Shown: piece by piece, positions 55 to 17,261 of the stretch
Numbering within the stretch: the stretch's first letter is position 1
Layout: every line of letters starts with the position of its first letter
Origin: Paraglaciecola marina
GTDB lineage: Bacteria; Pseudomonadota; Gammaproteobacteria; Enterobacterales; Alteromonadaceae
Assembly (NCBI RefSeq): GCF_004360155.1
Contig: NZ_ML178725.1
Span: forward strand, 1 to 64,000
Length of the DNA stretch: 64,000 nt
Direction: 5' to 3'
The notes under the pieces: model-generated
Databases searched by the model: none
Told to the model about the DNA's origin: nothing
Seen by the model: the letters and a program-made list of their open reading frames with translations, nothing else
Position numbers and translations under genes: made by a program

Positions 55-2475
<2,421 letters not shown>

Positions 2476-2479
2476 TTAG

Positions 2480-3577
2480 TTAAATCTCCTCTTTCACATG
2501 ACCATGTTCCACGTGAAACACTGTTTTATCATTATAATTTTCTATAAATTCTAATTGGTTAATATCAATCGCTGTAACAAATAATTGCGTATCAGAGTTT
2601 GCTAATTTAGATATAAATACCTTACGCTTATCTTCGTCTAGTTCGGCACCGATATCATCTAACAGGAATATCGATGGTCTATTGGTTTTGCTTTGTAAAT
2701 AAAGAGTTTGGGCTAGTTGCATACTTGCTACAAGCATGCGTAATTGCCCCCTAGAAAGTAATTCATGAGCATTAACGCCCTTAATCTTAATTTTTATATC
2801 TGCCTTATGAGGACCTGCGCTTACAAAACCATTTCGCATATCTCGCATCAAATTTTTTCTTAGTGATTGTTCTAGAGTAAGTTCCTTTTCCCATCCCCTA
2901 TAATACGAAATTTCGAAGGAAAACTCAGGTAAAAAATCTGCTAATGTAGAATTAATCATAGGTATTAACCCTATTTCTAGTAATTCTTCACGCTTTTTGG
3001 AAATTTTGCTCCCTTGATTACAAAATAATTCAGCCCAATAGTTTTCAGTACCCAAGTTACTATTAGTGTTGTTTTTATATAGAGCATTGAGTTGCTTAAG
3101 ACTCTTCATGAAAACGTTTGACTCGAGGTTAAAATTTTGTTCCACGTGAAACAATAGCCAATCGATAAAACGCCTCCGAAGTTTTGGGGCTCCTAAAAGC
3201 AAATCTGAGCTTTGAGGTGTGAATATTTGTATTGGTAAACAACTGACCAAATCTGAAGCTTTCTTAGATTTAACACCGTTAATATTAACTACACAACTAT
3301 CGTCTCTATGCCGACTAATACCTAACTTATGAGAAGAAGTAAGCTCTTTTTCTTGGCCAGAACAATAGACGGTAAAGTTATCTTTTCCACTTTGAATAAC
3401 ATTCTTATGCTTGGATGTTCTAAAAGAACGAGCAAAGCCTAAATAATGCAATGCTTCTAATATTGAGGATTTACCACTTCCATTCTCTCCAATAAAAACA
3501 TTTAGATTTCTATTGGGTGTAAAAGACAAGCTATCTAAATTTCTAAAATTACTTATCTGGACTTTATCCAGTTTCAT
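2480..3577 (-). CDS. recF: DNA replication and repair protein RecF
   Basis: SMC-like ATPase that helps load RecA at single-strand gaps and stalled forks. The Walker A motif GENGSGKSS lies around residues 30-38 and the Walker B/D-loop region LLDDIGAELD near the C-terminus. The length of 365 residues is normal. It sits between dnaN (35-base gap) and gyrB (4-base gap) in the usual order. The unusual point is that its coding sequence contains two parS-like palindromes, one in the last codons and one about 0.6 kb further upstream in the gene, so the gene doubles as a centromere segment. Confidence 0.97.
   Translation of the reverse strand: MKLDKVQISNFRNLDSLSFTPNRNLNVFIGENGSGKSSILEALHYLGFARSFRTSKHKNVIQSGKDNFTVYCSGQEKELTSSHKLGISRHRDDSCVVNINGVKSKKASDLVSCLPIQIFTPQSSDLLLGAPKLRRRFIDWLLFHVEQNFNLESNVFMKSLKQLNALYKNNTNSNLGTENYWAELFCNQGSKISKKREELLEIGLIPMINSTLADFLPEFSFEISYYRGWEKELTLEQSLRKNLMRDMRNGFVSAGPHKADIKIKIKGVNAHELLSRGQLRMLVASMQLAQTLYLQSKTNRPSIFLLDDIGAELDEDKRKVFISKLANSDTQLFVTAIDINQLEFIENYNDKTVFHVEHGHVKEEI
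2505..2520. other. parS: parS-like centromere site 1
   Basis: The 16-mer TGTTCCACGTGAAACA differs by one base from the canonical bacterial parS palindrome TGTTTCACGTGAAACA and keeps the central CACGTG. It lies inside the 3' end of recF. The same window encodes ParA and ParB at about 16.5-18.2 kb. ParB binding here is inferred from sequence identity to the consensus. Confidence 0.88.
3138..3153. other. parS: parS-like centromere site 2
   Basis: A second copy of exactly the same 16-mer, TGTTCCACGTGAAACA, lies inside recF about 0.63 kb from the first. Two identical near-consensus copies so close together are very unlikely by chance in AT-rich sequence. Both sites are about 10 kb from the proposed oriC, the normal distance range for parS. 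Confidence 0.88.
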
Positions 3578-3612
3578 ATTAGTTTAAACAACATATAAAT
3601 AAACAACTATAC

Positions 3613-4716
3613 CTAGAGCCTCATTGGCATAATAACGTATAGAGCAGAGTCATCTTTTGCGTCTTCAAGTAACGCACTACTGTTGGAATCAGCTAAAGTA
3701 ATTCGAATATCATCACAACTTAAACCATTCATTACATCTATCAAATAAGCAACGTTGAATCCTATTTCTAAGTTATCACCTTGATAATCAACATCGACTA
3801 TTTCCTCAGCTTCTTCTTGCTCTGGGTTATTGGCGGTAATCTTAAGCTCACCACAAGATAAGTTTAAGCGCACACCTTTAAACTTTTCATTAGAAAGAAT
3901 AGAAGCTCTCGAGAACGCTTGCTTTAATACATCCTTGCTAGATTCTATCTTTTTATCACCGTCTCTCGGCAGAACCCTACGATAATCAGGAAATCTTCCA
4001 TCAACTAACTTACTAGTAAAAATAAAGTCTGTTGAAAAGATTCTAATATGATTTGAGCCAACCTGAACTTTAACTAACTTTTCATTATCTTCAATTAGCC
4101 TAATAATTTCTAAAACGCCCTTACGAGGAATGATAACTTGGCGATTAGGTAAAGTTGCATTTTCGTAGGCTAAACGACACAGTGCTAATCTATGCCCATC
4201 CGTAGCTACTGTTCGAATCAAGTTATCTTCTGTCTCTAAAGACATACCATTCAAATAATAACGCACATCCTGTTGAGCCATACAAAAATGTGTACTATCA
4301 ATAAGATGTTTTAGATCAGCTTGCGAAATTTCAAACTCAAGTTCACCCTGCCAATCTTCAAGATTAGGATAATCCTCTGCTGATAGAGTAGATAAACTAT
4401 ATTTACTTCTACCTGAACGTAAAATGGCTTTGTTTCCATCGACACTAAAGTCAATATTACTACCTTCCGCCAGACCTCTACAGATATCCAGCAGCTTTTT
4501 AGCTGGTACAGTAATTTCACCCTCTACAAACGCATCAGTAAGAGTAACGTTTGAAATAAGTTCCACCTCTAAATCTGTGCCTGTTATCCAAAGTGAGTTC
4601 TCACTAACTTTTATTAGCACATTAGACAAGATGGGTAATGTATGACGACGCTCAACCGCGCCTGAAACTAATTGAAGGGGTTGTAAAAAGTTTTCCCTGC
4701 TAATGCTAAATTTCAT
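3613..4716 (-). CDS. dnaN: DNA polymerase III subunit beta (sliding clamp)
   Basis: Ring-shaped processivity clamp for DNA polymerase III. The protein starts MKFSISRENFLQPLQ, has the standard 367 residues, and ends in YVIMPMRL, the conserved C-terminal strand that closes the clamp's peptide-binding pocket (MPMR). It lies 19 bases after dnaA and 35 bases before recF on the same strand, consistent with a dnaA-dnaN-recF-gyrB transcript. Confidence 0.98.
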   Translation of the reverse strand: MKFSISRENFLQPLQLVSGAVERRHTLPILSNVLIKVSENSLWITGTDLEVELISNVTLTDAFVEGEITVPAKKLLDICRGLAEGSNIDFSVDGNKAILRSGRSKYSLSTLSAEDYPNLEDWQGELEFEISQADLKHLIDSTHFCMAQQDVRYYLNGMSLETEDNLIRTVATDGHRLALCRLAYENATLPNRQVIIPRKGVLEIIRLIEDNEKLVKVQVGSNHIRIFSTDFIFTSKLVDGRFPDYRRVLPRDGDKKIESSKDVLKQAFSRASILSNEKFKGVRLNLSCGELKITANNPEQEEAEEIVDVDYQGDNLEIGFNVAYLIDVMNGLSCDDIRITLADSNSSALLEDAKDDSALYVIMPMRL

Positions 4717-4735
4717 TTTCTACTCGTAATATTTT

Positions 4736-6145
4736 TTATGAAGAGAGTGTACGAATTAAGTTCTGATAATCTTCTTTTATATCATGACTTTCTTCCCTTA
4801 GCTGTACTATTTTTCGGCATGCATGTAATACAGTAGTATGATCCCTACCGCCAAAGGCATCTCCTATCTCTGGTAAACTACGATTTGTTAATTCTTTAGC
4901 TAAAGCCATAGCCATTTGTCTTGGCCTGGCTACGCTACGACTCCTGCGTTTAGACAAAATATCTGCCATTTTAATTTTATAATACTCTGCTACCGTCTTT
5001 TGAATATTATCAATAGTTACCAACTTCTCTTGCAACGCCAACAAGTCTCTTAAAGCCTCTCTCACAAAATCTATAGTAATTGGCCGACCTGTGAAGTTAG
5101 CATTAGCAATGACTCGGTTTAATGCTCCTTCAAGCTCCCTAACATTTGATCTTAATCTTTTTGCAATGAAAAACGCCACTTCATCAGGTAAGAAAATCTT
5201 ATTCTCTACAGCCTTACGCATCAAAATAGCAACTCTTGTTTCCAACTCAGGAGGCTCAATTGCTATAGTTAATCCCCACCCAAATCTAGATTTTAGTCTA
5301 TCTTCAACGCCAGTTATTTCCTTAGGATAACGATCAGAAGTCAGAATAATCTGTTGGTTACCTTCTAATAGAGCATTAAATGTATGAAAGAATTCTTCCT
5401 GAGAGCGTTCTTTATTAGCAAAAAATTGAATATCATCAATTAGTAGAGCATCAACAGATCTATAATAACGCTTAAATTCTTCTATGGCGTTATTCTGTAA
5501 TGCTTTAACCATATCTTGAACAAACCTTTCGGATTGCATATAAACAACCGTTGCGTCTTTTTTATTATCTATAATTCCATTACCAACAGCATGTAACAGA
5601 TGTGTTTTACCTAATCCAGTCCCACCATATATAAATAATGGGTTATAGGCACCACCTGGATTATCCGCTACTTGCTGAGAAGCAGCTCTTGCTAGTTGAT
5701 TTGACTTACCCTCAACAAAATTATTAAATTTATATGTAAGGTTAATATTACTTTTATGGGCTGGTACCGTATCAATAACTTGGGAACTTGAATTATGGTT
5801 AGCTAAAGCAGCAACTCCACTTGCTGCTGAACTTTGAACTAAAGGTGTAGCAGTAGACACTGTTGAAACTCTAGAAGTAATTTTGGATGGTGCACCTACT
5901 CCAACATCAGCAAGCTTAACTTCAAACCTTAATTGAGGTGGTTTATTACTGCAAAATTCTGACAATAACTGAGTAATTTGAACAAAATATTTATCTCTCA
6001 CCCAATCTAAAACAAAGCGATTAGGAGCGAACAATGTTAGATATTCTTCATTATAATCTGCTTGAAGAGGTCTTATCCACATGCTGAACTGCTGAATAGG
6101 TAAATCTTGCTGTAACCTGTCGAGGCACTGATTCCATATAGACAT
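4736..6145 (-). CDS. dnaA: Chromosomal replication initiator DnaA
   Basis: AAA+ initiator that binds DnaA boxes, melts oriC and recruits the replicative helicase. N-terminal domain I ([12 protein letters not shown]) is followed by a low-complexity linker at roughly residues 85-130. The AAA+ core has Walker [10 protein letters not shown] near residue 175 and Walker B LLIDDIQF. Domain IV carries the DnaA-box recognition motif [14 protein letters not shown]. At 469 residues it is normal length. It is the first gene of the minus-strand replication operon; its promoter should lie in the 6146-6697 intergenic region, which contains DnaA boxes that could mediate autorepression. Confidence 0.98.
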
Positions 6146-6697
6146 TAAAAAAAACTACTCCGGCCATACACAACATAGGCTATAAAGAAGAAATACGTAA
6201 AATACTAAAAATTTGAAAATAATAAATTACAGTTAAATATAAGTTAAAAATGCAAATTTTTAAACTAGCTGTGAATTATCTCGCTAAACACCACCTCAAG
6301 GCAACAAGCATTTTAAATTAAATTCATTTAAGTTCCTAAATCCTTATATTTATTTACTTTAAGGGATAAAAATAATTAATAAACCTAAGCTTATTCATAA
6401 CAATTATTAGTTCTAATAGGTCTATTTTAAATATCAAGAACTAGTAAATCTGTGTATCAGGGAATTTTTTGTGGATAAATTATAAAAATCATTAAACTTA
6501 TCAAAAATAATAGTCTTAATTAACGGTTACAGAGATAAACACCAATATCAGAATAAAATTATAATGAACTGCCACTAATTAATTGACAAAGGCACAAGTG
6601 ATCTCTATTATTCAGCGTCATTTTTGAGCACAGTCGAACCAAACATTTGGTTATTACAGTGTTCATTTTGTTTAACCTTATGTAACGGGACTAGGTC
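6146..6697. promoter_or_regulatory. dnaA/rpmH divergent intergenic region with DnaA boxes
   Basis: A very AT-rich 552-base stretch between divergent dnaA and rpmH. A perfect DnaA box (TGTGGATAA, the complement of TTATCCACA) is at 6470-6478. A near-match, TGTGTATCA, lies at 6451-6459, 19 bases away. These are well placed for DnaA autoregulation of dnaA. Only one GATC site (6600-6603) is present, which argues against this being the main origin in a Dam-positive lineage. The dnaA promoter itself could not be pinned down by eye. Confidence 0.65.
6583..6611 (+). promoter_or_regulatory. Strong sigma-70 promoter for rpmH-rnpA
   Basis: A perfect -35 hexamer TTGACA (6583-6588), a 17-base spacer and a near-perfect -10 hexamer TATTAT (6606-6611) lie about 80 bases before the rpmH start. 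This is the best promoter match seen in the window and fits the high expression expected of ribosomal protein L34. Confidence 0.85.
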
Positions 6698-6832
6698 ATG
6701 AAAAGAACATTTCAACCAAGCAACTTAAAGCGTAAGCGTTCACACGGTTTTCGTGCCCGTATGGCGACTAAGAATGGCCGTAAGGTCATAGCTAATCGTC
6801 GTGCTAAAGGCCGTGCTCGTTTATCAGCTTAA
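6698..6832 (+). CDS. rpmH: 50S ribosomal protein L34
   Basis: A 44-residue, highly basic protein that begins [18 protein letters not shown] and ends GRARLSA, which is unmistakably L34. L34 is a late-assembling protein of the large ribosomal subunit. It is preceded by GGGA at a loose ribosome-binding distance and by the strong promoter at 6583-6611. It is followed after 9 bases by rnpA, the universal rpmH-rnpA pair. Confidence 0.98.
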
Positions 6833-6841
6833 TTATCCAAG

Positions 6842-7210
6842 GTGGGTGAAAATAACTTTTCTCGGGAGCTAAGACTACTTACTCCCACCCACTTTGAATA
6901 TGTTTTCAATAAAGCAATTCCTGCAGTTTCTCCCCAACTTACCCTACTAGCTAGATTTAACGAATCAGATAATCCTCGTCTAGGCATTACTTTATCTAAA
7001 AAAAGAGTTAAATATGCCCACGATAGAAATAGACTTAAACGTATAATACGAGAGAGCTTTCGTTTACAACGTCATTCGTTTCCAAATATTGATATAGTTG
7101 TAGTCGGTAAAAGTGGCTTAGATAAATTATCAAATCAGGAGCTGTTTTCCTTACTTAATAAATTATGGAAAAAATTAGCAAAGCGTTGCGAAAAATCCCA
7201 ATCGGATTAA
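6842..7210 (+). CDS. rnpA: Ribonuclease P protein component
   Basis: Protein cofactor of RNase P, which trims tRNA 5' ends. At 122 residues it has the usual length. The RNR signature region is visible as [14 protein letters not shown] around residues 60-75, preceded by [13 protein letters not shown]. The start is GTG, 9 bases after the rpmH stop, suggesting translational coupling. The 3' end overlaps yidD by 46 bases in another frame, a common arrangement for this gene pair. Confidence 0.96.
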
Positions 7211-7416
7211 TTAAACTTTATCAAAAAGTAATTTCTCCAATGTTGGGACCAACATGTCGTTTTCACCCTAGTTGTTCTTATTACGCAATTGGGGCAATAA
7301 AAGAACATGGTTTTTTTATTGGAAGTTGGTTAAGTATTAAACGCATACTAAAATGTCATCCCCTTCATGAAGGGGGATATGATCCAGTACCAGAAAAAAA
7401 ATCAAATAAAGAGTGA
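7165..7416 (+). CDS. yidD: Membrane protein insertion efficiency factor YidD
   Basis: A small protein (83 residues) thought to assist YidC-dependent insertion of inner-membrane proteins. The family signature [14 protein letters not shown] and the later cysteine/histidine segment [14 protein letters not shown] are present. It overlaps the rnpA 3' end and precedes yidC by about 125 bases, the conserved order in proteobacteria. Confidence 0.96.
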
Positions 7417-7541
7417 TTTTTACACAACTGCCCTTATAAAGAGCAGGTAATAAATAAAATAGTAATATCGCCGTGATTTAATATATGAATAAACACTTAA
7501 ATAAATCGCCCACGAAATTTAGCAGTTAATTAGAGTACTTT

Positions 7542-9176
7542 ATGGAATCTCAACGTAGTTTTTTGTTTATTGGCCTAGCTATGGTCGGTTTTCTATTATG
7601 GCAGCAATGGCAGGTAGATTACGGTCCACAACCAATACAACCTTCTGATAACACTTCTCAAGAAGCCTTTATAGCAAATCCTTCTGGAACAGAAGATATC
7701 CCTGTAGCATCTGCAGATGGTCAAACTATCCAAGCAAGCAACCAACCATCAGGAAAGTTAATTTCAGTTGTAACAGATACCTTAATACTTAACATAGATA
7801 CCAAAGGTGGTGATGTTGTTTCTGCTAATCTTGTTAAATATCCGGTAGAGCAAGACTCTAAAGAACTATACAGCTTACTCAGACCAAATGGAGATAAATT
7901 ATTTATTGCCCAAAGTGGCTTAATTGGGCAAGACGGTGTTGACGCAAAAGGCCGACCTACTTATGTAACAACGCAAGATGAATATACTCTGCAAGGCGAG
8001 ACTTTAACCGTACCTCTTACTCTAGTTACACCAGACGGAATGAAAGTTACTAAAAACTTTATATTCTCAAAAGGTAGTCACAAAATCGATGTTAGCTATG
8101 TAGTTGAAAACAACACTAGTGCTGCAAAACAAATGCAACAATTTGGTCAATTAAAACAAAGTATGCTTGAACAAGATGGCAGCATGTTTATGCCTGTGTA
8201 CCGCGGCGGCGCTTACTCTATAGAAGAAGATATTTATGAGAAATATACCTTTGATGATATGACCGACAAAAATCTTAGGGAAACCACCAAAGCAGGTTGG
8301 GCTGCAATGATTGAACATTACTTTGTTTCAGCATGGGTTCCGCCTCAAGACCAAACCAATAAACTATTTAGTACCGTTAAACAAAATACAAATGGTGTCA
8401 TCGGATTTACAGGTGAATCAGTCACTATACAAGTAGGTGAAACTAAACAAATAAATAGTATTTTATATTTAGGCCCTAAAGATCAAGATACCTTAGAACA
8501 ACTTGCTCGAGGATTAGATCTAACAGTTGATTATGGTTTTCTATGGATGATTTCAAAATACTTATTCTACTTCCTACAATGGATACACAATATAGTAGGT
8601 AATTGGGGTTACGCCATTATATTGATCACCATAGTCGTTAAAGGGGCAATGTATCCTTTAACCAAAAAACAATATGAATCTATGGCAAAAATGCGCGCGC
8701 TAAAGCCTAAAATGGATGCTTTAAAAGAGCGATGTGGCGACGATAAGCAAAAACTACAAAAAGGTATGATGGAGCTATATAAGAAGGATAAAGTTAATCC
8801 TATGGGTGGTTGTTTTCCATTATTACTACAAATGCCTATATTCTTAGCTTTATACTGGGTACTACTTGAAAGTGTAGAGCTGAGACATGCTGATTTTATA
8901 TTTTGGATTACAGACTTAAGTGCTAAAGACCCATATTTTGTTCTACCCATATTAACGGGTGCAAGTATGTATTTATTACAAAAACTACAACCCATGACTA
9001 TGACAGATCCTATGCAGCAGAAAATAATGCAATTTATGCCAGTAGCCATGAGTTTATTCTTCTTTATATTCCCAGCTGGTTTAGTACTTTATTGGTTAGT
9101 CAGTAATGTTATTACCCTAATACAGGCTAAATTTATTTATGCTTCCATGGAGAAACGTGGTCTTCAAACTAAGTAA
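7542..9176 (+). CDS. yidC: Membrane protein insertase YidC
   Basis: Inner-membrane insertase/chaperone acting alone or with SecYEG. At 544 residues it is the Gram-negative form: an N-terminal membrane anchor (FLFIGLAMVGFLLW), a large periplasmic beta domain (about residues 55-340), then the conserved five-helix core from about residue 345. Core motifs include the cytoplasmic hairpin KMRALKPKMDALKERCGDDK and NPMGGCFPLLLQMPIFLALY. It is closed by a strong terminator. Confidence 0.98.
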   Translation: MESQRSFLFIGLAMVGFLLWQQWQVDYGPQPIQPSDNTSQEAFIANPSGTEDIPVASADGQTIQASNQPSGKLISVVTDTLILNIDTKGGDVVSANLVKYPVEQDSKELYSLLRPNGDKLFIAQSGLIGQDGVDAKGRPTYVTTQDEYTLQGETLTVPLTLVTPDGMKVTKNFIFSKGSHKIDVSYVVENNTSAAKQMQQFGQLKQSMLEQDGSMFMPVYRGGAYSIEEDIYEKYTFDDMTDKNLRETTKAGWAAMIEHYFVSAWVPPQDQTNKLFSTVKQNTNGVIGFTGESVTIQVGETKQINSILYLGPKDQDTLEQLARGLDLTVDYGFLWMISKYLFYFLQWIHNIVGNWGYAIILITIVVKGAMYPLTKKQYESMAKMRALKPKMDALKERCGDDKQKLQKGMMELYKKDKVNPMGGCFPLLLQMPIFLALYWVLLESVELRHADFIFWITDLSAKDPYFVLPILTGASMYLLQKLQPMTMTDPMQQKIMQFMPVAMSLFFFIFPAGLVLYWLVSNVITLIQAKFIYASMEKRGLQTK

Positions 9177-9192
9177 TTGATAAACAACATCT

Positions 9193-9239
9193 AAAAGCCC
9201 GTTTTATAGCAAATATTGCATATAAAACGGGCTTTTTTT
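9193..9239 (+). terminator. Rho-independent terminator after yidC
   Basis: A long stem pairs AAAAGCCCGTTTTATA with TATAAAACGGGCTTTT around a 12-base loop and is followed by a run of seven T residues. It ends the rpmH-rnpA-yidD-yidC unit and implies that yajQ-mnmE has its own promoter. Confidence 0.92.
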
Positions 9240-9280
9240 CCATATAATTTAATCTCTAATTTGTTACACAAGGAGCAAAC

Positions 9281-9763
9281 ATGCCTTCATTAGATATAGT
9301 TTCAGAAATTGATTTAGTAGAAGTTAAAAACGCAGTCGATAATGCAAGCAGGGAACTAAGTACACGATTTGACTTTAGAGGTGTAGAGGCATCATTTGAA
9401 TATACTAATGAACTAGTAACATTAAAAGCTGAGGGTGACTTTCAAATTAAACAAATGATGGATATATTGCGTAGTGCATGCGCAAAAAGAGGGGTAAGTA
9501 ACGCCGCCCTTGATCCACAAGATATTGACGTTACCGGCAAAACTTACAAGAAGACAGTTAAGTTTATTCAAGGCATAGAACAACCTAATGCAAAGAAAAT
9601 AATTAAATTACTAAAAGAATCCAAACTAAAAGTTCAAGCTCAAATACAAGAAGATAAAGTCAGAGTTACAGGTAAAAAGCGCGATGATTTACAAAGTGCT
9701 ATGCGCCTAGCTAAAGAAGCTGAGTTAGATTTACCATTACAGTTTACAAACTTTAGAGATTAA
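9281..9763 (+). CDS. yajQ: YajQ family nucleotide-binding protein
   Basis: A cytoplasmic protein of two ferredoxin-like domains. Family members bind nucleotides, and some have been shown to bind cyclic di-GMP and act as transcriptional co-regulators; whether this one does is unknown. It starts [19 protein letters not shown] and ends [10 protein letters not shown], matching the family over its full 160 residues. A clear ribosome-binding site, AAGGAGC, precedes the ATG. It lies just after the yidC terminator and 6 bases before mnmE, so the two are probably cotranscribed. In E. coli and most relatives yajQ lies elsewhere, so its place between yidC and mnmE is lineage-specific. Confidence 0.95.
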
Positions 9764-9769
9764 AAAAGC

Positions 9770-11152
9770 ATGACAGCAACCGGATTACCAACACAGCAAG
9801 ATACAATAGTTGCTCAAGCAACAGCGCCCGGCCGTGGAGGTGTTGGAATTATCCGAGTATCAGGAGACTTAGCCAGTAATGTTGCTGAAGCTGTTTTAGG
9901 AAAACTTCCAGAAGTCCGTAAAGCTGAATATTTGCCCTTCTCTGATCTTCAAAATAATCTTATCGACCAGGGCATTTCCATTTTTTTTAAAGGTCCTAAC
10001 TCCTTTACCGGTGAAGATATTTTGGAGCTTCAAGGACATGGTGGCCAGGTTGTATTAGATATGTTACTTAATGCTATTCTAAAAATACCTAAAATACGTA
10101 TAGCTCGACCTGGTGAATTTAGTGAACGCGCATTCTTAAATGATAAGTTAGACCTAGCACAAGCAGAAGCCATAGCAGATCTTATAGATGCCAGTACCGA
10201 ACAAGCTGCCAAGGGAGCATTGCGCTCACTACAAGGTGAGTTTTCAACACAGGTTAATACGTTAGTAGAACAAGTTATACACCTTAGAATGTATGTAGAA
10301 GCCGCCATTGATTTCCCTGATGAAGAAATTGATTTTTTAAGTGATGGTAAAGTCCAAGCTGATTTGATTAATATTATCCAATCATTTGAAGCATTACGGC
10401 AACAAACCAAGCAAGGCGCTTTATTACGAGAAGGTATGCGTGTGGTTATTGCAGGCAAACCCAATGCCGGTAAATCTAGCTTACTAAACGCTCTTGCAGG
10501 AAAAGACGCCGCTATTGTCACCGACATAGCAGGTACCACACGAGACGTTTTAAAAGAGCATATCCATATTGACGGTATGCCGTTACATATTATCGACACA
10601 GCAGGTTTGCGAGATAGCCCAGACAAAGTCGAAAAAATAGGCATAGAGAGAGCTTGGCAAGAAATACATCAAGCTGACAGAGTTCTATTTATGCTAGATA
10701 GTACCGAGTCAAAAGAAACACACCCCAAAGAAATATGGCCTGAGTTTTATCAACAGCTTCCTAAAAACATTGGTTTAAGTGTCATCCGCAATAAAGCAGA
10801 CTTATCTAATGAAACTATTGGCATCAATGACAAGGGTGAATATCCAGTTATATCCTTATCTGCTAGTGAAAATATTGGGATTAATCATTTAACAGAGCAC
10901 CTAAAAACCTGCATGGGATTTAACCTAGGTTCGGAGGGTCAATTTATAGCTCGTCGTCGTCATTTAGATGCCATAGACAAAGCAGCTGAACATTTGTACC
11001 TAGGAAAAGAACAACTAGAAGACCACCTAGCAGGCGAATTACTCGCTGAAGAGTTGCGATTAACTCAACACCACCTGAATGACATCACTGGGGAATTTAC
11101 CTCGGATGACTTACTCAGCAAAATATTTTCATCTTTTTGCATTGGAAAATAA
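9770..11152 (+). CDS. mnmE: tRNA modification GTPase MnmE
   Basis: With MnmG it installs the (carboxymethyl)aminomethyl group on uridine 34 of certain tRNAs. The N-terminal tetrahydrofolate-binding domain contains [14 protein letters not shown]. The G domain has Walker [16 protein letters not shown] near residue 224, DIAGTTRD and DTAGLRD. The protein ends FCIGK, the conserved C-terminal cysteine motif C(I/L/V)GK. It is 460 residues, close to the norm. Its partner mnmG lies 2.7 kb downstream across oriC. Confidence 0.98.
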
Positions 11153-11184
11153 ATCCAAGTTAAAAATTTATCTGTGTCGATCTA

Positions 11185-11202
11185 TTATCCGCAAGGTACA
11201 AT
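11185..11202 (+). promoter_or_regulatory. Candidate mioC-dnaT-dnaC promoter with DnaA-box-like site
   Basis: TTATCCGCA (11185-11193) is one base from the DnaA box TTATCCACA. It is followed by TACAAT (11197-11202), a good -10 hexamer about 32 bases before the mioC ATG. The -35 is weak. In E. coli the mioC promoter also carries a DnaA box and is repressed by DnaA, so DnaA control here is a reasonable inference, not proven. Confidence 0.5.
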
Positions 11203-11234
11203 AAAAAATTATTAGCAAAATACGTAAGACTTGA

Positions 11235-11678
11235 ATGGCAAAGTTCGAAATAATAGTAGGCAGTGTATTAGGTGCAACCGAATATGTAGCTGATGCAGTA
11301 CAAGAAGTTCTCACTGAAAAGCAACACACAAGTAATATACACCTAACCCCTAAGTTATCTGAATTAGATGAAAACGCTACATGGATTATCTGTACATCAA
11401 CCCATGGTGCCGGTGACTTACCAGACAATATCGAACCTTTTTCTAAAGAACTATTGGTAAAGCAGTTCCCCAATACAAACTTTATCATTATTGGCTTAGG
11501 TGATAGTAGCTATGACACATTTTGCTATGGGGCTATCAAATTAGAAACATTGATGTCTACCACAGGTGCAAAAATACTTATGCCCGCTATTCATATAGAT
11601 GTACTTAACCACCCTATTCCCGAAAATGTAGCAGTTGAACATATAGAAACTTACTTCAAAAACGTAACTATTGATTAA
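11235..11678 (+). CDS. mioC: Flavodoxin-like protein MioC
   Basis: FMN-binding short-chain flavodoxin. In E. coli MioC is linked to biotin synthesis electron transfer, and its transcription enters oriC. The flavodoxin phosphate loop is modified to GSVLGATEY near the N-terminus, followed by STHGAGDLPDN and GLGDSSYDTFCYG, which line the flavin ring. It is 147 residues, the family's usual size. It leads a tight series with the DnaT-like (15-base gap) and DnaC-like genes that runs toward oriC. Confidence 0.95.
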   Translation: MAKFEIIVGSVLGATEYVADAVQEVLTEKQHTSNIHLTPKLSELDENATWIICTSTHGAGDLPDNIEPFSKELLVKQFPNTNFIIIGLGDSSYDTFCYGAIKLETLMSTTGAKILMPAIHIDVLNHPIPENVAVEHIETYFKNVTID

Positions 11679-11693
11679 TGAGTATTAAAGCTA

Positions 11694-12347
11694 ATGCAAT
11701 TTAATCAAGCTGAACAAACTGCCCTACTACAAACTCTCAGCAATGAAGCTCGAACTTTATATATGTTAGGAATAAAACCTACGGCAAATAAAAAGACAGG
11801 GTTAAGTGCGCCTCTAAATTACAAAAACCTACTTTCACTTCTAAATGAAAAAGAACAAAAGTTCACACTTGGTAGACAAATTAATAGCTTAATAAAAGAA
11901 TTACTTAATACTGGTCTGGTTAAATTTGAACAAGAAGTAGAGCTTAACCACAGTTTTAATGGTAAAACCTTAGTATTGCCCTTAACCACAATGAAAGTTG
12001 ATGACTATACCAAGCTACATTTAAATTGGACTGACATGCATTTAGACTGGCAGCCCAACGAAAACTTAGTAACTGATTTAGCCAAACTAATAGGTCTTAT
12101 TGAATACCAATATACAGATAATGAATTAGGAGACTTTATAGCTTATTGGCTTGGCAGGCCTGAAGTCCAATTTAGCGAATATCAATGGACACAAAAATTT
12201 GTATTTAATTTGAAGAAAATGCGAATGGCTAATAACTTTAAAGGAACACAAAAAGTAGGGCAGCAAATGGTTAAAACCAAAGCTGGAATAATTGCAGACG
12301 ACAATGCTAAAAATTTAGTAGCTAAATATAGTAAAAAAACTCAGTAA
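11694..12347 (+). CDS. DnaT-like primosomal/helicase-loading protein
   Basis: A 217-residue protein whose C-terminal half resembles the DNA-binding domain of E. coli DnaT: LDWQPNENL (about residues 118-126), then FIAYW (about 149-153), then QWTQKFVFNLKKMR. These align by eye with DWQP, FIAYW and QWQQK in DnaT. The N-terminal 115 residues (helical, with KTGLSAPLNYKNLLSLL) do not resemble DnaT's N-terminus and may be a different partner-binding module. The next gene is DnaC-like, so the pair recapitulates the enterobacterial dnaTC operon. The gene begins 15 bases after mioC and ends 1 kb from oriC. I infer a role in loading the replicative helicase at initiation or restart. The match is from memory, not a search. 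Confidence 0.82.
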   Translation: MQFNQAEQTALLQTLSNEARTLYMLGIKPTANKKTGLSAPLNYKNLLSLLNEKEQKFTLGRQINSLIKELLNTGLVKFEQEVELNHSFNGKTLVLPLTTMKVDDYTKLHLNWTDMHLDWQPNENLVTDLAKLIGLIEYQYTDNELGDFIAYWLGRPEVQFSEYQWTQKFVFNLKKMRMANNFKGTQKVGQQMVKTKAGIIADDNAKNLVAKYSKKTQ

Positions 12348-12379
12348 ACTTAACTTTATAATCTAGGACTATAAAATTC

Positions 12380-13204
12380 GTGGACAGCATTCAAGACAAA
12401 ATAAAGAAACTAGGTAAAGCTTTAGGCCGGCAACACGTCCCTGATAGTTATACTGACTACAAAAGTCTAAAAAGCGAATATGAAACCTTAGCAAATAGAG
12501 ATGTTAGGTTGATTCAACAGCAAGGTAAAAAACAACGTATACAAGCCATACAAGGGCGTTCCGATCTCAACTCAAAATGGACCTTTGCAAACTTAATAGA
12601 AGACAGTAATGACGTTATAGAAGCGGTAAGCATTGCTAAGTCTTTCATTGCAGCCCACGAAGACCAAAACTGGCGTAGAAGTGGCTCTCATATGATGATC
12701 TTTTACGGAGACTACGGCCGTGGAAAATCTCACACGGCAGGTGCTATAGCACATGAACTCATCGAAAAATTTGAAATATCAGTATTATATCGCCAACTAT
12801 CCAGCATATTAGAACTTCGTTTTTTCTCATACGATTACAATGCAAAAGATGATGTTGGACAAAAATTTAGAGAGATAAACCAAGAGCTATTAGATGTAGA
12901 CTTACTGATACTCGATGAAGTGTGTGTTAACGAAAGCATACTTAAAAAGAATGCCCAAAGCTGGCTAGGAAATTTACTTAGGCAACGTTTAGCCAATAAT
13001 AAAAACTGTATATTAATTACTAACCATAACCTTGCTGAATTAGAAACAGCACTAGGGCCCTATTGTTTTGAATCAATAAAAGAGTATGACACCTATAAGG
13101 TGAAATTTTCTGGACCAAGTCGTCGTAAAGAAATAGTCCCTACACAAACAGAGCCACAGCGAGCACAATCAACAACTGGATATCAACCTAATCAGGTTAG
13201 ATAA
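12380..13204 (+). CDS. DnaC-like helicase loader ATPase
   Basis: A 274-residue AAA+ protein of the DnaC/IstB group. Walker A is GDYGRGKSH around residue 116, Walker B LLILDEVCV around 175, and a sensor I-like ILITNHN around 212. The N-terminal 60 residues, which in DnaC contact the DnaB helicase, are lysine-rich and helical. The extreme C-terminus (QTEPQRAQSTTGYQPNQ) looks disordered. The start is GTG. It directly follows the DnaT-like gene, and the last codon lies at the edge of oriC. DnaC-type loaders descend from phage genes. IstB-type transposition helpers share the fold, but no transposase is nearby and the DnaT-like neighbour favours helicase loading. Confidence 0.85.
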   Translation: MDSIQDKIKKLGKALGRQHVPDSYTDYKSLKSEYETLANRDVRLIQQQGKKQRIQAIQGRSDLNSKWTFANLIEDSNDVIEAVSIAKSFIAAHEDQNWRRSGSHMMIFYGDYGRGKSHTAGAIAHELIEKFEISVLYRQLSSILELRFFSYDYNAKDDVGQKFREINQELLDVDLLILDEVCVNESILKKNAQSWLGNLLRQRLANNKNCILITNHNLAELETALGPYCFESIKEYDTYKVKFSGPSRRKEIVPTQTEPQRAQSTTGYQPNQVR

Positions 13205-13227
13205 CCATTATAAATACAGATAAAAAC

Positions 13228-13250
13228 GGCGTTATTATTAACGCCATTTA
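13228..13250 (+). terminator. Possible weak terminator between dnaC-like gene and oriC
   Basis: A 7-base-pair perfect stem, GGCGTTA/TAACGCC, with a TTAT loop lies 24 bases after the stop and is followed by an interrupted T-rich tract (ATTTATATTT). It could reduce transcription entering oriC but lacks a solid T run. Confidence 0.5.
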
Positions 13251-13555
13251 TATTTAAGCATCAAATTTTCACTAAAAAAGTCTTAAATCTAATCAAATAT
13301 ATTTTTTTTGAATAAATATTAAAATTTTTGTTTAGCATTTATCAAAAATATACATGAGAAACAAAGATAACGATCTTAGGATCCAAAAATAGCAATTTTT
13401 CCTTAGCGATCAAGATCTAACTAAAATAACCCTATAATTAGATCACAAGTTACACACAGTTAGATCAAAACATATTCAACATTGTGGATAGTTTTATGTA
13501 TAACCCCTGTAGAAATATATTATATCCACTTAGTAAAATATTTAGAAAATGCACT

Positions 13556-13564
13556 TGTGGATAA
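13556..13564 (-). other. Perfect DnaA box in oriC
   Basis: TGTGGATAA is the exact complement of the consensus TTATCCACA. It is the strongest box in this origin and so a candidate for the R1-like anchor, lying about 150 bases from the GATCT repeats. Confidence 0.8.
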
Positions 13565-13706
13565 AACAGCTATTTATACCCATATTATACCTACTTACTA
13601 TCGCTTTATTAACATGGTTGATCGTTATTCAAATAATTGATTTTAATAGTAAAAAAGCACTTATTAACAGAAAAGTAGATCCTTAATAATAGTAATAATA
13701 AGTAAA

Positions 13707-13761
13707 GATCTAATAGATCTTATAAATACTAGTGAGATCAAAATTTAAGATCTGAATAAAT
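13707..13761 (+). repeat. GATCT-headed AT-rich 13-mers (candidate DNA unwinding element)
   Basis: Three AT-rich 13-mers starting GATCT occur at 13707, 13716 (overlapping) and 13749: GATCTAATAGATC, GATCTTATAAATA and GATCTGAATAAAT. They resemble the E. coli L, M and R 13-mers, which also begin GATCT, and sit on the mnmG side as in E. coli. The function is inferred. Confidence 0.7.
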
Positions 13762-13850
13762 TTTAAGCATTTTACTTACGTCAAAATCTATATAGAATGT
13801 GCGCCCCGTTTTAAAGGGTACAAAATGATCAACAGCGTTAGAGGAATACC

Positions 13851-15764
13851 ATGTTTTATCAACAAAATTTTGATGTAGTCGTAGTAGGCGGTGGCCATGC
13901 AGGAACAGAAGCAGCATTAGCTTCTGCACGTATGGGAGCATCAACCTTATTACTCACACACAACATTGAAACTTTGGGTCAAATGTCATGTAACCCAGCT
14001 ATTGGTGGTATTGGTAAAGGACATTTAGTAAAAGAGATCGATGCTTTAGGTGGTGTCATGGCTAAAGCGATCGACAAAGCAGGTATTCAGTTTAGAACCC
14101 TAAATTCAAGTAAAGGCCCAGCGGTCCGAGCAACCCGAGCTCAAGCAGATCGTACTCTTTATAAAAATGAAATTAGAAATATTATTGAAAACCAAGAAAA
14201 CCTAACCTTATTTCAACAATCTTGTGATGATCTTATTGTAGAACAAGATCGCGTTGTGGGTGTAGTCACTCAAATGGGTCTTAAATTCCATGCTAAAGCG
14301 GTTGTAATCACCGTAGGAACGTTTTTAGGCGGTACAATACATATAGGCATGGAAAATTATAAAGGAGGCCGTGCAGGCGATCCTCCTTCGATCGCTTTAG
14401 CTGATCGCTTACGGGATTTACCCTTTAGAGTTGATCGTTTAAAAACAGGAACACCTGCTAGACTAGATGCTCGTACATTAAATTTCGATGCTATGCAGGT
14501 GCAACACGGTGACACACCTATTCCGGTAGTTTCGTTTTTAGGTAAAGCCAGTGATCATCCTAGTCAAGTTCCTTGTTACATTACTCACACTAATGAAAAA
14601 ACACATGACATTATTCGAGGTGGATTAGATAGATCCCCTATGTATACTGGAATTATAGAAGGTGTTGGTCCACGCTATTGCCCTTCAATTGAAGATAAAA
14701 TTCATCGTTTTGCAGATAAAAATTCTCACCAAATATTTGTAGAACCTGAAGGGCTAAATAGCATTGAAGTTTATCCAAATGGTATTTCAACTAGTCTTCC
14801 ATTCGATGTTCAAATGAACTTAGTTCGTTCAATTGTTGGTTTTGAAAATGCGCATATTGTACGTCCTGGTTATGCGATCGAATATGACTTTTTTGATCCA
14901 AGGGATCTAAAACAAACACTTGAAACAAAATTTATCAATGGACTGTTTTTTGCCGGGCAAATAAATGGCACAACAGGCTATGAAGAAGCAGGTGCTCAAG
15001 GCTTAATAGCAGGGGCGAATGCTGCTAGTCAGGTGCAACAAAAAGAAGAATTTATTCTACGCCGTGATGAGGCATATATTGGCGTATTGATCGATGATCT
15101 AGCCACAATGGGAACTAAAGAGCCTTATCGTATGTTTACCAGTAGAGCTGAATATCGCTTATTACTGAGAGAAGATAATGCGGATATTAGATTGACAGCC
15201 AAAGGACATAAAATAGGGTTAGTTGATGAATATCGCTGGAAAGCTTTTAATGAAAAATTAGAAGCAATTGAACTTGAAAAGCAACGCTTAAAAGCAACCT
15301 GGGTTCATCCAAAACATGAATCTGTTGGCGAGTTAAATAAAATTTTAAAAAATCCAGTTACTAAGGAAAACTCTTTAGAAGATTTAATCCGACGTCCTGA
15401 AATGACTTATAAAACTTTAATAAGTTTAGATACCTTTGGCCCAGGTTTAGATAACGAACAAGCTGCAGAACAGGTCGAGATACAAATCAAATATGCTGGA
15501 TATATCGAACGTCAAAAAGATGAAATAGCCAAAACTGTACGTAATGAGAATACGCTTATTCCAAAAGATTTTGATTTTAGTCAAATTTCAGGATTAAGTA
15601 ATGAAGTCGTCGCTAAGCTTAGTGATGCGCGACCCGAGACTATTGGTAAAGCGGGTAGAATTTCAGGTATTACACCTGCTGCCGTTTCACTTTTGCTTGT
15701 TTATTTGAAAAAGCACGGATTATTAGTTGGATCTAGCAGCAACGAAAAGAAAATTATAGCCTGA
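13851..15764 (+). CDS. mnmG: tRNA uridine-5-carboxymethylaminomethyl modification enzyme MnmG
   Basis: FAD-dependent partner of MnmE (formerly GidA) that modifies wobble uridine of tRNAs. The FAD-binding motif [20 protein letters not shown] is at residues 10-29, followed by [19 protein letters not shown] and [10 protein letters not shown]. At 637 residues it is normal. It begins 1 base after an AGAGGAATACC leader and follows oriC directly, as in many gammaproteobacteria. Its 5' half carries an unusual density of GATC sites (see findings). It overlaps rsmG by one base. Confidence 0.98.
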
Positions 15765-16420
15765 TGAAAGAACAACAGATTTTAGGTGAAGAATTACTCA
15801 CCATTTTAAAAAAGAGCATTAAATACACCTCTTTAGATGTTAACGAACAGCAACAAAAACTACTGATCAACTACATTTTAATGGTTAATAGATGGAACAA
15901 GGCTTTCAATTTAACCTCTATTCGAGAGCCAGAAAAAATGGTGATAAAGCATATAGTTGACTCCATTGTAGTGGCCCCTTTTCTGGATAAAAATCAATAT
16001 ATTGATGTAGGTACTGGCCCAGGGTTACCGGGTATTCCATTAGCAATTATGTGTCCTGATAAACATTTTATTTTATTAGATAGTTTAGGAAAACGTGTAC
16101 GCTTTATGAAGCAAGTAGCACATGAACTAAATATTCAAAATATTGAGCCTGTACAATCTAGAGTTGAAGACTACGTTCCAACTTACAAAATTGATGGGGT
16201 ATTGAGCAGAGCTTTTGCATCATTAAAAGATATGTTGCACTGGTGTCAGCATCTGGTAGATTCCCACGGAGTTTATCTTGCTTTAAAAGGACAACTTCCT
16301 CTGGATGAGCTTGAAGAGTTACCTATAGGTTTTACCTTACAAGAAACACTTAAGTTAGACGTTCCAGGCCTTGACGGTGAACGTCATATAGTCAAAATAA
16401 TAAAACAACCATCAGACTAG
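15764..16420 (+). CDS. rsmG: 16S rRNA (guanine-527-N7)-methyltransferase RsmG
   Basis: SAM-dependent methyltransferase (GidB) acting on G527 of 16S rRNA. The SAM-binding motif [17 protein letters not shown] lies near residues 85-101, preceded by [19 protein letters not shown], and [10 protein letters not shown] is present. The length of 218 residues is typical. The ATG overlaps the mnmG TGA, indicating translational coupling. Confidence 0.97.
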
Positions 16421-16475
16421 ATGCTATTTAATTAGGCATAATTTTTATGTCTATCTAGTCTGCCAACATAAATGG

Positions 16476-17261
16476 ATGGCTATTTTGGGCAAAATCATTG
16501 CGATCGCTAATCAAAAAGGTGGTGTCGGAAAAACAACTACAGCGGTTAACGTTGCTGCATCAATGGCAGCTACTAAGCGCAAGGTATTGTTGATCGACTT
16601 AGATCCTCAGGGAAATGCCACCATGGGTAGTGGTGTAGACAAATATAGTGTTGAAAACACCAGTTACGAATTATTAATTGAAGAAAAACCAATTGATGAA
16701 GTTTTAATTAAAGAAACGTCAGGAAAATATGATCTCATAGCAGGAAATAGTGACATTACAGCCGCTGAGATTAAACTGATGGAAGTATTTGCAAGAGAAG
16801 TACGACTTAGAAATGCATTGGCACCAGTTAAAAATTACTACGATTTTATTTTTATTGATTGTCCTCCTTCCCTAAATCAGCTTACTGTAAATGCAATGGC
16901 AGCTGCAGACTCTGTTTTAGTACCCATGCAATGTGAATACTATGCACTTGAAGGGTTAACAGCTTTGATGGATACCATCAAAAAATTAGCATCGGTTGTT
17001 AATCCAGCATTAAAAATTGAAGGTGTGCTAAGAACTATGTATGACCCTAGAAATAGATTAGCTAATGATGTGTCAGAACAGCTTAAACGACATTTTGGTG
17101 ATCAAGTTTATAGAACGGTTATTCCTAGGAATGTTAGGCTTGCAGAAGCTCCAAGTTTTGGTGCTCCAGCCATGTATTATGACAAGTCGTCCACCGGGGC
17201 CAAAGCTTATTTATCATTAGCTGGTGAAATTTTGCGTCGTAGTAGAAAGAAAACAACTTAG
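16476..17261 (+). CDS. parA: Chromosome partitioning ATPase ParA (Soj)
   Basis: Deviant-Walker ATPase that moves ParB-bound origins on the nucleoid. The motif KGGVGKTT with the signature lysine is at the N-terminus, followed by LLIDLDPQGNATMG and FIDCPPSL. The length is about 261 residues. An in-frame TTG three codons downstream would give the common family start MGKIIAIANQKGG, so the start is slightly uncertain. It lies 23 bases before parB, in the usual rsmG-parA-parB-atp order. Target parS sites are in recF. Confidence 0.97.
   Translation: MAILGKIIAIANQKGGVGKTTTAVNVAASMAATKRKVLLIDLDPQGNATMGSGVDKYSVENTSYELLIEEKPIDEVLIKETSGKYDLIAGNSDITAAEIKLMEVFAREVRLRNALAPVKNYYDFIFIDCPPSLNQLTVNAMAAADSVLVPMQCEYYALEGLTALMDTIKKLASVVNPALKIEGVLRTMYDPRNRLANDVSEQLKRHFGDQVYRTVIPRNVRLAEAPSFGAPAMYYDKSSTGAKAYLSLAGEILRRSRKKTT

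Follow-up and report, generated by a model that had tools for sequence, protein, structure and literature searches.

Helicase loading is the step that commits a cell to replication. In this study, we analyzed a DnaT-like and a DnaC-like gene lying side by side in a stretch of 64,000 nucleotides of Paraglaciecola marina (contig NZ_ML178725.1, positions 1 to 64,000; hereafter the window), where the pair follows mioC and ends at a region predicted to be the replication origin (oriC). According to PMC13377028, the E. coli preprimosome consists of PriA, PriB, and DnaT; there, the C-domain of DnaT docks on PriA and forms filaments on single-stranded DNA (ssDNA), its linker docks on PriB, and an oligomer of its N-domain is proposed to recruit DnaB-DnaC. 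In addition, E. coli DnaC variants that bypass the restart factors exist (PMC11087952).

The capture of dna[CI] together with the loss of dciA has been reported for 'a restricted clade of Alteromonadales' (Brezellec et al. 2016, PMC5109545), in a study whose data set includes Alteromonas macleodii and which counts the captures of Aeromonadales and Alteromonadales separately. The main text of that study (supplementary context figures apart) contains no occurrence of DnaT and names oriC for P. aeruginosa only. The DnaC-type gene described here is probably identical with the published one, sharing its clade and the loss of dciA. Our literature searches, which covered titles and the beginnings of abstracts and excluded subscription papers, returned nothing on a DnaT partner whose N-domain differs, on the slot beside oriC, on a joint absence of PriB and full-length PriC, or on a DnaC without these arginines. 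We consider it likely that the pair is the resident helicase loader of one Alteromonadaceae clade (Alteromonas, Paraglaciecola, Glaciecola, Aliiglaciecola, Bowmanella, and kin), a phage-type pair that entered once, replaced DciA, and allowed the loss of PriB and full-length PriC.

Identity of the DnaT-like and DnaC-like proteins

A preliminary description of this DNA, made from its letters, had read the two genes as members of the DnaT and DnaC kinds and had pointed to a divergent N-terminal half in the former, and these readings were borne out by our searches. PF17948 (DnaT ssDNA-binding domain) matched residues 114-180 of the DnaT-like protein (E 1.6e-20; 73 bits against a cut-off of 25), and the predicted fold of this C-domain agrees with that of the DnaT ssDNA-binding domain. 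The alignment with E. coli DnaT by hhalign covered columns 109-191 alone, with 32% identity over 81 columns, and the equivalog of E. coli-type DnaT (PRK02854) was not reached (31.2 bits vs the 201 required). The N-terminal half (residues ~1-100) is predicted to form a winged helix and appears, as far as can be judged from sequence, to be unrelated to E. coli DnaT. PHROG replication initiation proteins matched the DnaT-like protein near their ends; against phrog_1408, residues 114-190 alone matched, and the protein does not belong to this group along its whole length. PriA is encoded in the genome, and the DnaT-like protein may bind ssDNA and PriA.

The DnaC-like protein scored above the cut-offs of PF01695 IstB (27.1 vs 24.1) and Bac_DnaA (26.8 vs 23), had E. 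coli DnaC as its top sequence match in PDB (6qel, 6e-8), and matched PHROG 50, 'DnaC-like helicase loader' (2.9e-30), whereas the DnaC equivalog of NCBIfam (NF005931) was not reached (55.4 vs 357 bits). It contains an AAA+ domain of the DnaC/DnaI/IstB kind with Walker A, Walker B, and the sensor 1 Asn. Helices were predicted at residues 4-14 and 27-61 of its N-terminus with moderate scores in the predicted local distance difference test (pLDDT), and chain G of 6qem superposes on the model over residues 1-246 with a root-mean-square deviation of 5.1.

R220 of E. coli DnaC is the arginine finger. In the sequence alignment, R216, R220, and R222 are all replaced in the DnaC-like protein, and the position of R220 holds Ser in 45 of 45 sequences and Ala in 15 of 15 sequences of another family (f25), as read from the alignment alone; another arginine may serve as the finger. 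Compared with dnaT-dnaC of E. coli, the pair has the same two-gene order, the DnaT C-domain, and an AAA+ loader with predicted N-terminal helices, but it differs in its place beside oriC, its unalignable DnaT N-domain, these arginines, and the lack of PriB and of a full-length PriC match in its clade.

Distribution of DnaT, DciA, PriB, and PriC

Of 60 relatives, 30 had a DnaT match, 24 had a DciA match, and none had both. We also surveyed 295 genomes of the family, drawn from a larger group, in which the lists of DnaT and DciA were matched by hand: DnaT was present in 92 (20 of 52 genera) and DciA in 190 (33 of 52 genera; 179 genomes above the curated cut-off). The two overlapped in a single genome, G227 (93% complete, 5% contaminated; G and L numbers denote other genomes and loci, and G000 the window genome). 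Its DnaT lies on a 6,710-bp contig with a DnaC that shares 95% identity with the DnaC of one Alteromonas strain, and a true co-occurrence was rejected for this misbinned contig with its Alteromonas-like DnaC. Fourteen of the 295 genomes held neither protein, and the 12 of them with PriB look like DciA-type genomes in which the search missed DciA. In five members of the order (G036, G051, G053, G055, and G058), neither DciA nor DnaT was matched. For the window genome, in which a separate complete loader had been named as counter-evidence in the preliminary description, there was no DciA match and one DnaT match; a second DnaC-like gene was not searched for.

A second resident copy of DnaT was rejected for G097, G138, and G166. 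The proteins of G097:C17 (L167 9704-10045) and G138:C27 (L166 ~3887-4348) are short, hold little beyond the DnaT C-domain, and lie, as read from the sequence, amid Mu-like phage genes, and the second match of G166 is on a 6.3-kb contig (G166:C479).

At an E-value of 1e-10, PriB was found in 200 of the 295 genomes, comprising 199 of the 203 DnaT-negative genomes (exceptions G073, G143, G149, and G196) and, among the 92 DnaT-positive ones, G227 alone. With looser E-values, many DnaT-type genomes give a PriB match in a frame of SSB length, under the cut-off; the window genome has no PriB at 1e-10 and such a frame at 2.9e-7. Its rpsF abuts rpsR (L188), and a distance of 0-23 nt from the end of rpsF to rpsR was seen in 24 of 24 DnaT-positive genomes, including that of the window, while an open reading frame of 102-110 aa lies between the two genes in 6 of 6 DciA-positive genomes.

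PriC scored above its cut-off in all nine DciA-type genomes searched (in G030 in a 92-aa frame only) and in none of 12 DnaT-type genomes, where one weak match was obtained. This match is a protein of ~105 aa under the PriC cut-off, here called mini-PriC, which adjoins epmB and efp in two loci read. Across both types, 24 of 27 genomes had clear homologues of mini-PriC, including 12 of 12 DnaT-type family genomes and also DciA-type genomes that hold PriC; the weak mini-PriC match of G149, in a 203-aa frame, is probably PriC itself. Searches of NCBIfam with mini-PriC gave two chance-level matches only, for the f25 copy. A complete loss of PriC in the DnaT clade was rejected, because the sub-threshold matches represent mini-PriC, which both types keep.

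PriA was above its cut-off in 41 of 41 genomes; in the DnaT-type genome G077, priA matches in two pieces and two frames (G077:C17:284344-286094), reflecting either a sequencing error or a real break. The other Alteromonadaceae share PriA and the same slot of mioC, oriC, and mnmG with the clade, but differ in holding DciA, PriB, and PriC and no DnaT match.

Conserved place beside the predicted origin

The run of mioC, the DnaT-like gene, and the DnaC-like gene ends at the oriC-like region (Table 1), with gaps of 15 and 32 bases between the genes, and the coordinates and gaps of the preliminary description were exact. All 80 named loci, which represent the best 80 of 101 relatives and include the misbinned contig of G227 (L116), show the order mioC, dnaT, dnaC, as do 28 of 28 family loci that come largely from the same genomes. 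Wherever a named locus held enough DNA (77 of 77), mnmG came next after dnaC, at 455-5699 bp. In these 77 loci, the stretch of up to 800 nt before mnmG contained a median of 19 GATC sites (range 1-29, a few loci being GATC-poor), and a perfect DnaA box was found before mnmG in 76. The proposal that the pair is physically at the origin in this lineage therefore holds across the neighbourhood survey. In E. coli K-12, in line with the preliminary description, dnaT-dnaC (4.60 Mb) is 0.67 Mb away from oriC (3.93 Mb).

The distance from mioC to mnmG was 361-632 bp in 25 of 30 DciA-type relatives, without a dnaT or dnaC match, and mioC was not found within the 1.5 kb examined in the other five. Since mioC borders the origin gap in DciA-type relatives, the pair was inserted between mioC and oriC. 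In several relatives, dnaC and mnmG are separated by an extra gene or by a few kb; sequence reading of L054, L065, L069, L071, L072, L079, and L102 showed a gene for a secreted-repeat-like protein of ~260 aa there, and in some of these seven loci also an HMG-CoA reductase-like gene before oriC.

The ratios of nonsynonymous to synonymous differences (pN/pS) were 0.10-0.13 for dnaC, 0.10-0.17 for mnmE, 0.19-0.34 for dnaT, and 0.33-0.39 for mioC, with synonymous sites near saturation. Chance can be excluded for the arrangement, because the order was kept in all named loci and the genes are under purifying selection. A prophage remnant was likewise rejected for the pair on the basis of its housekeeping context, this constraint, and its conservation throughout the clade.

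Table 1. Features of the loader locus in the window, with mini-PriC loci
Feature	Position	Strand	Remarks
mioC, flavodoxin-like	11235..11678	+	NCBIfam MioC equivalog, 158.2 bits vs cut-off 158
DnaT-like gene	11694..12347	+	217 aa, ATG start; PF17948 domain
DnaC-like AAA+ helicase loader gene	12380..13204	+	274 aa, GTG start; profiles, PDB sequence match, PHROG
oriC-like region, dnaC to mnmG	13205..13850		predicted; 646 bp, 25.5% GC, 13 GATC
Terminator-like hairpin	13228..13245	+	7 pairs, just 3' of dnaC
GATC cluster	13372..13830		13 sites
DnaA-box-like site	13483..13491	-	1 mismatch
Perfect DnaA box	13556..13564	-	TTATCCACA
mnmG	13851..15764	+	far side of oriC; name read from sequence
mini-PriC	L204 6412-6780		
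mini-PriC	L205 5838-6146		
mini-PriC	G000:C2:158082-158384		

The gap between dnaC and mnmG shows the traits of a gammaproteobacterial oriC beside mnmG, being AT-rich and GATC-rich with DnaA boxes, and it is predicted from these features and its place to be the replication origin. Its GC content compares with 37.7% in the window, and it is the window's densest stretch of GATC, against a mean of 1.56 sites (standard deviation 1.77) in stretches of equal length. The GATC group at 13707-13752 we take to resemble, by place and letters, the unwinding element of E. coli. With 8 occurrences of TTWTNCACA in the window vs 10.5 expected, DnaA boxes alone are no proof of an origin. The minimum of the cumulative GC skew of the window is at 7.8 kb, ~5.5 kb from the oriC-like region.

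Of the preliminary interpretation, the kind of the pair, its fixed place, and the divergent N-half of DnaT stand, and the transcriptional tie that it suggested between loader synthesis and the origin is putative. As their common strand and short gaps suggest, mioC, dnaT, and dnaC may be cotranscribed. A strict scan found a hairpin after dnaC in 14 of 77 loci vs 2.5% in shuffles, and such a hairpin is not general in the relatives.

On the + strand, the genes are ordered yidC, yajQ-like, mnmE, mioC, DnaT-like, DnaC-like, the AT-rich gap, and mnmG, and dnaA, dnaN, recF, and gyrB lie upstream of the pair in divergent orientation; except for mioC, dnaT, and dnaC, gene names in the window were read from the sequence. 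Besides the loader pair and oriC, about 17 kb of the window (55-17261) holds gyrB, recF, dnaN, dnaA, and a parA-like gene.

Probable single entry, related families, and phage modules

We built an mnmG tree with 109 rows, in which the closest rows of the window genome are Paraglaciecola and the 78 DnaT-type rows lie on one side of a branch with a Shimodaira-Hasegawa-like approximate likelihood ratio (SH-aLRT) of 99 (quick method, no bootstrap). The pair has a single origin in the clade, and what occurred within the family therefore looks like one switch. The pair also shows the marks by which a dna[CI]-type gene is recognized as resident, namely a conserved context, a species-congruent distribution (as one mnmG-tree clade), and no dciA.

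In a survey of 394 genomes of the order, 92 matched the DnaT profile. The matches ran along most of its length in nearly all of those in this family (16 genomes), f25 (33), and f3 (29), and over the C-domain only in 13 genomes of f18 and one of f7. From PMC5109545 we infer that f25 and f3 are Aeromonadales (f25 Aeromonadaceae). In f25, a DnaT with the predicted winged helix is paired with DnaC in 14 of 14 loci and in L164. The f25 and clade proteins align over 206 columns for DnaT, including the N-domain (32%), and over 224 columns for DnaC (40%), and the f25 DnaC lacks the same arginines and has the same GPSRR end. Unlike the pair of the clade, that of f25 is not flanked by mioC or mnmE (14 of 14 loci, ~1.5 kb examined on each side; across 20 kb in L164).

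The f25 genome G059 has no DciA and neither PriB nor PriC above the cut-off, and the f3 genome G037 has neither DciA nor PriB and no DnaC within the 20 kb examined around its DnaT. DnaT matches in frames of 543-1405 aa, well beyond the usual length and reflecting either fusion or stop-poor DNA, were seen in f3 (G559:C8, G610:C16, G618:C36, G586:C36, and G594:C166). In the DnaC tree, Alteromonadaceae and f25 were separated from E. coli and one phage with support of 100/100, the latter two branches being very long.

Phage modules (phrog_1408, phrog_50, and L237) resemble the pair in that an initiator ending in a DnaT domain is directly followed by a DnaC-like gene, but in them the C-domain alone aligns and DnaC retains R216, R220, and R222. 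On the IMG/VR contig L237 (2774-5167), this initiator overlaps the DnaC-like gene, with a RusA-like gene near. Matches to the PHROGs hit by the window proteins are better for E. coli DnaT (1.3e-27) and E. coli DnaC (5.9e-75). For a direct phage ancestor, tblastn of either protein gave no match in 50,697 phage records, and a profile scan of IMG/VR yielded three DnaT-domain loci and no relative of the DnaC-like protein (42 pattern-matching stretches, none confirmed). A phage source is well grounded in general for the DnaT-DnaC kind of pair (PMC5109545), and it would apply to the pair of this clade as well.

Proposed mechanism and alternative explanations

We propose that a phage-type DnaT-DnaC unit would have entered once into the slot between mioC and oriC and taken over from DciA at the origin, and that its action at stalled forks would have permitted the loss of PriB and full-length PriC. 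As in E. coli, the DnaC-like AAA+ protein may bind the DnaB ring and open it, its N-terminal helices contacting DnaB; the C-domain of the DnaT-like protein may coat exposed ssDNA and dock on PriA. The winged helix would replace the N-domain and the PriB-binding linker of E. coli DnaT, either gathering DnaC-DnaB or gripping duplex DNA. Restart would then run from PriA through winged-helix DnaT and DnaC to DnaB, and initiation from DnaA through DnaC to DnaB, perhaps with DnaT. Loss of PriB and PriC after the gain of a permissive loader is plausible because bypass variants of E. coli DnaC exist (PMC11087952). A bolder form of this proposal, which we regard as tentative and rather unlikely, is that a whole phage-type start module was swapped in by one step, with winged-helix DnaT as a second DnaA-like adaptor loading DnaC-DnaB at oriC and at forks without PriB or full-length PriC, and with a DnaC that lacks the canonical arginine finger and frees DnaB by an altered ATPase cycle, comparable to the dnaC809-type variants of E. 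coli, with which restart factors become dispensable.

The place of the pair could have no function of its own, the unit having landed there by chance, being expressed with mioC, and functioning equally well at any other site, so that the replacement of DciA alone matters. This is compatible with a resident loader and falls just short of an even prospect: in f25, a like pair lies apart from mioC and mnmE, an additional gene or several kb separate dnaC from mnmG in some relatives, and dnaTC of E. coli is remote from oriC, whereas the slot stayed constant in every named locus although intergenic lengths and some neighbours changed. The winged helix could, on the other hand, be directed to the origin, binding oriC or DnaA and bringing DnaC-DnaB in the manner of phage replisome organizers, with restart as its second use. 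Such an extension of the resident-loader proposal seems unlikely; it draws on the winged-helix model, on the DnaT C-domains at the ends of phage replication initiation proteins, on the phage contig with an initiator beside a DnaC-like gene, and on the adjoining oriC.

Two further explanations compete with a resident loader that replaced DciA. The pair could serve restart only, with initiation by another, undetected loader, given that E. coli DnaT is known for restart (PMC13377028), that the DciA search can miss (14 of 203), and that no search for a second DnaC was made in the window genome. We judge this quite improbable, as no DciA match occurred in the 91 DnaT genomes apart from G227 and the constraint on dnaC equals that on mnmE. 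An ordinary E. coli-type dnaTC operon relocated to oriC would account for the gene order and the C-domain, and is nevertheless scarcely credible in view of the unalignable N-domain, equivalog scores far below the cut-offs, the missing arginines, the absence of PriB, and the f18 and f7 genomes, which match the C-domain only.

Implications

Taken together, these results indicate that this clade, with its likely resident DnaT-DnaC loader, probably starts and restarts the copying of its DNA with a differently built machine. The clade and its close relatives with DciA, PriB, and PriC have the same origin slot and offer a before-and-after comparison of the contributions of DnaT, PriB, PriC, and DciA. 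Furthermore, the likeness to f25 suggests that the captures of Aeromonadales and Alteromonadales, which are separate in PMC5109545, may be one kind of module.
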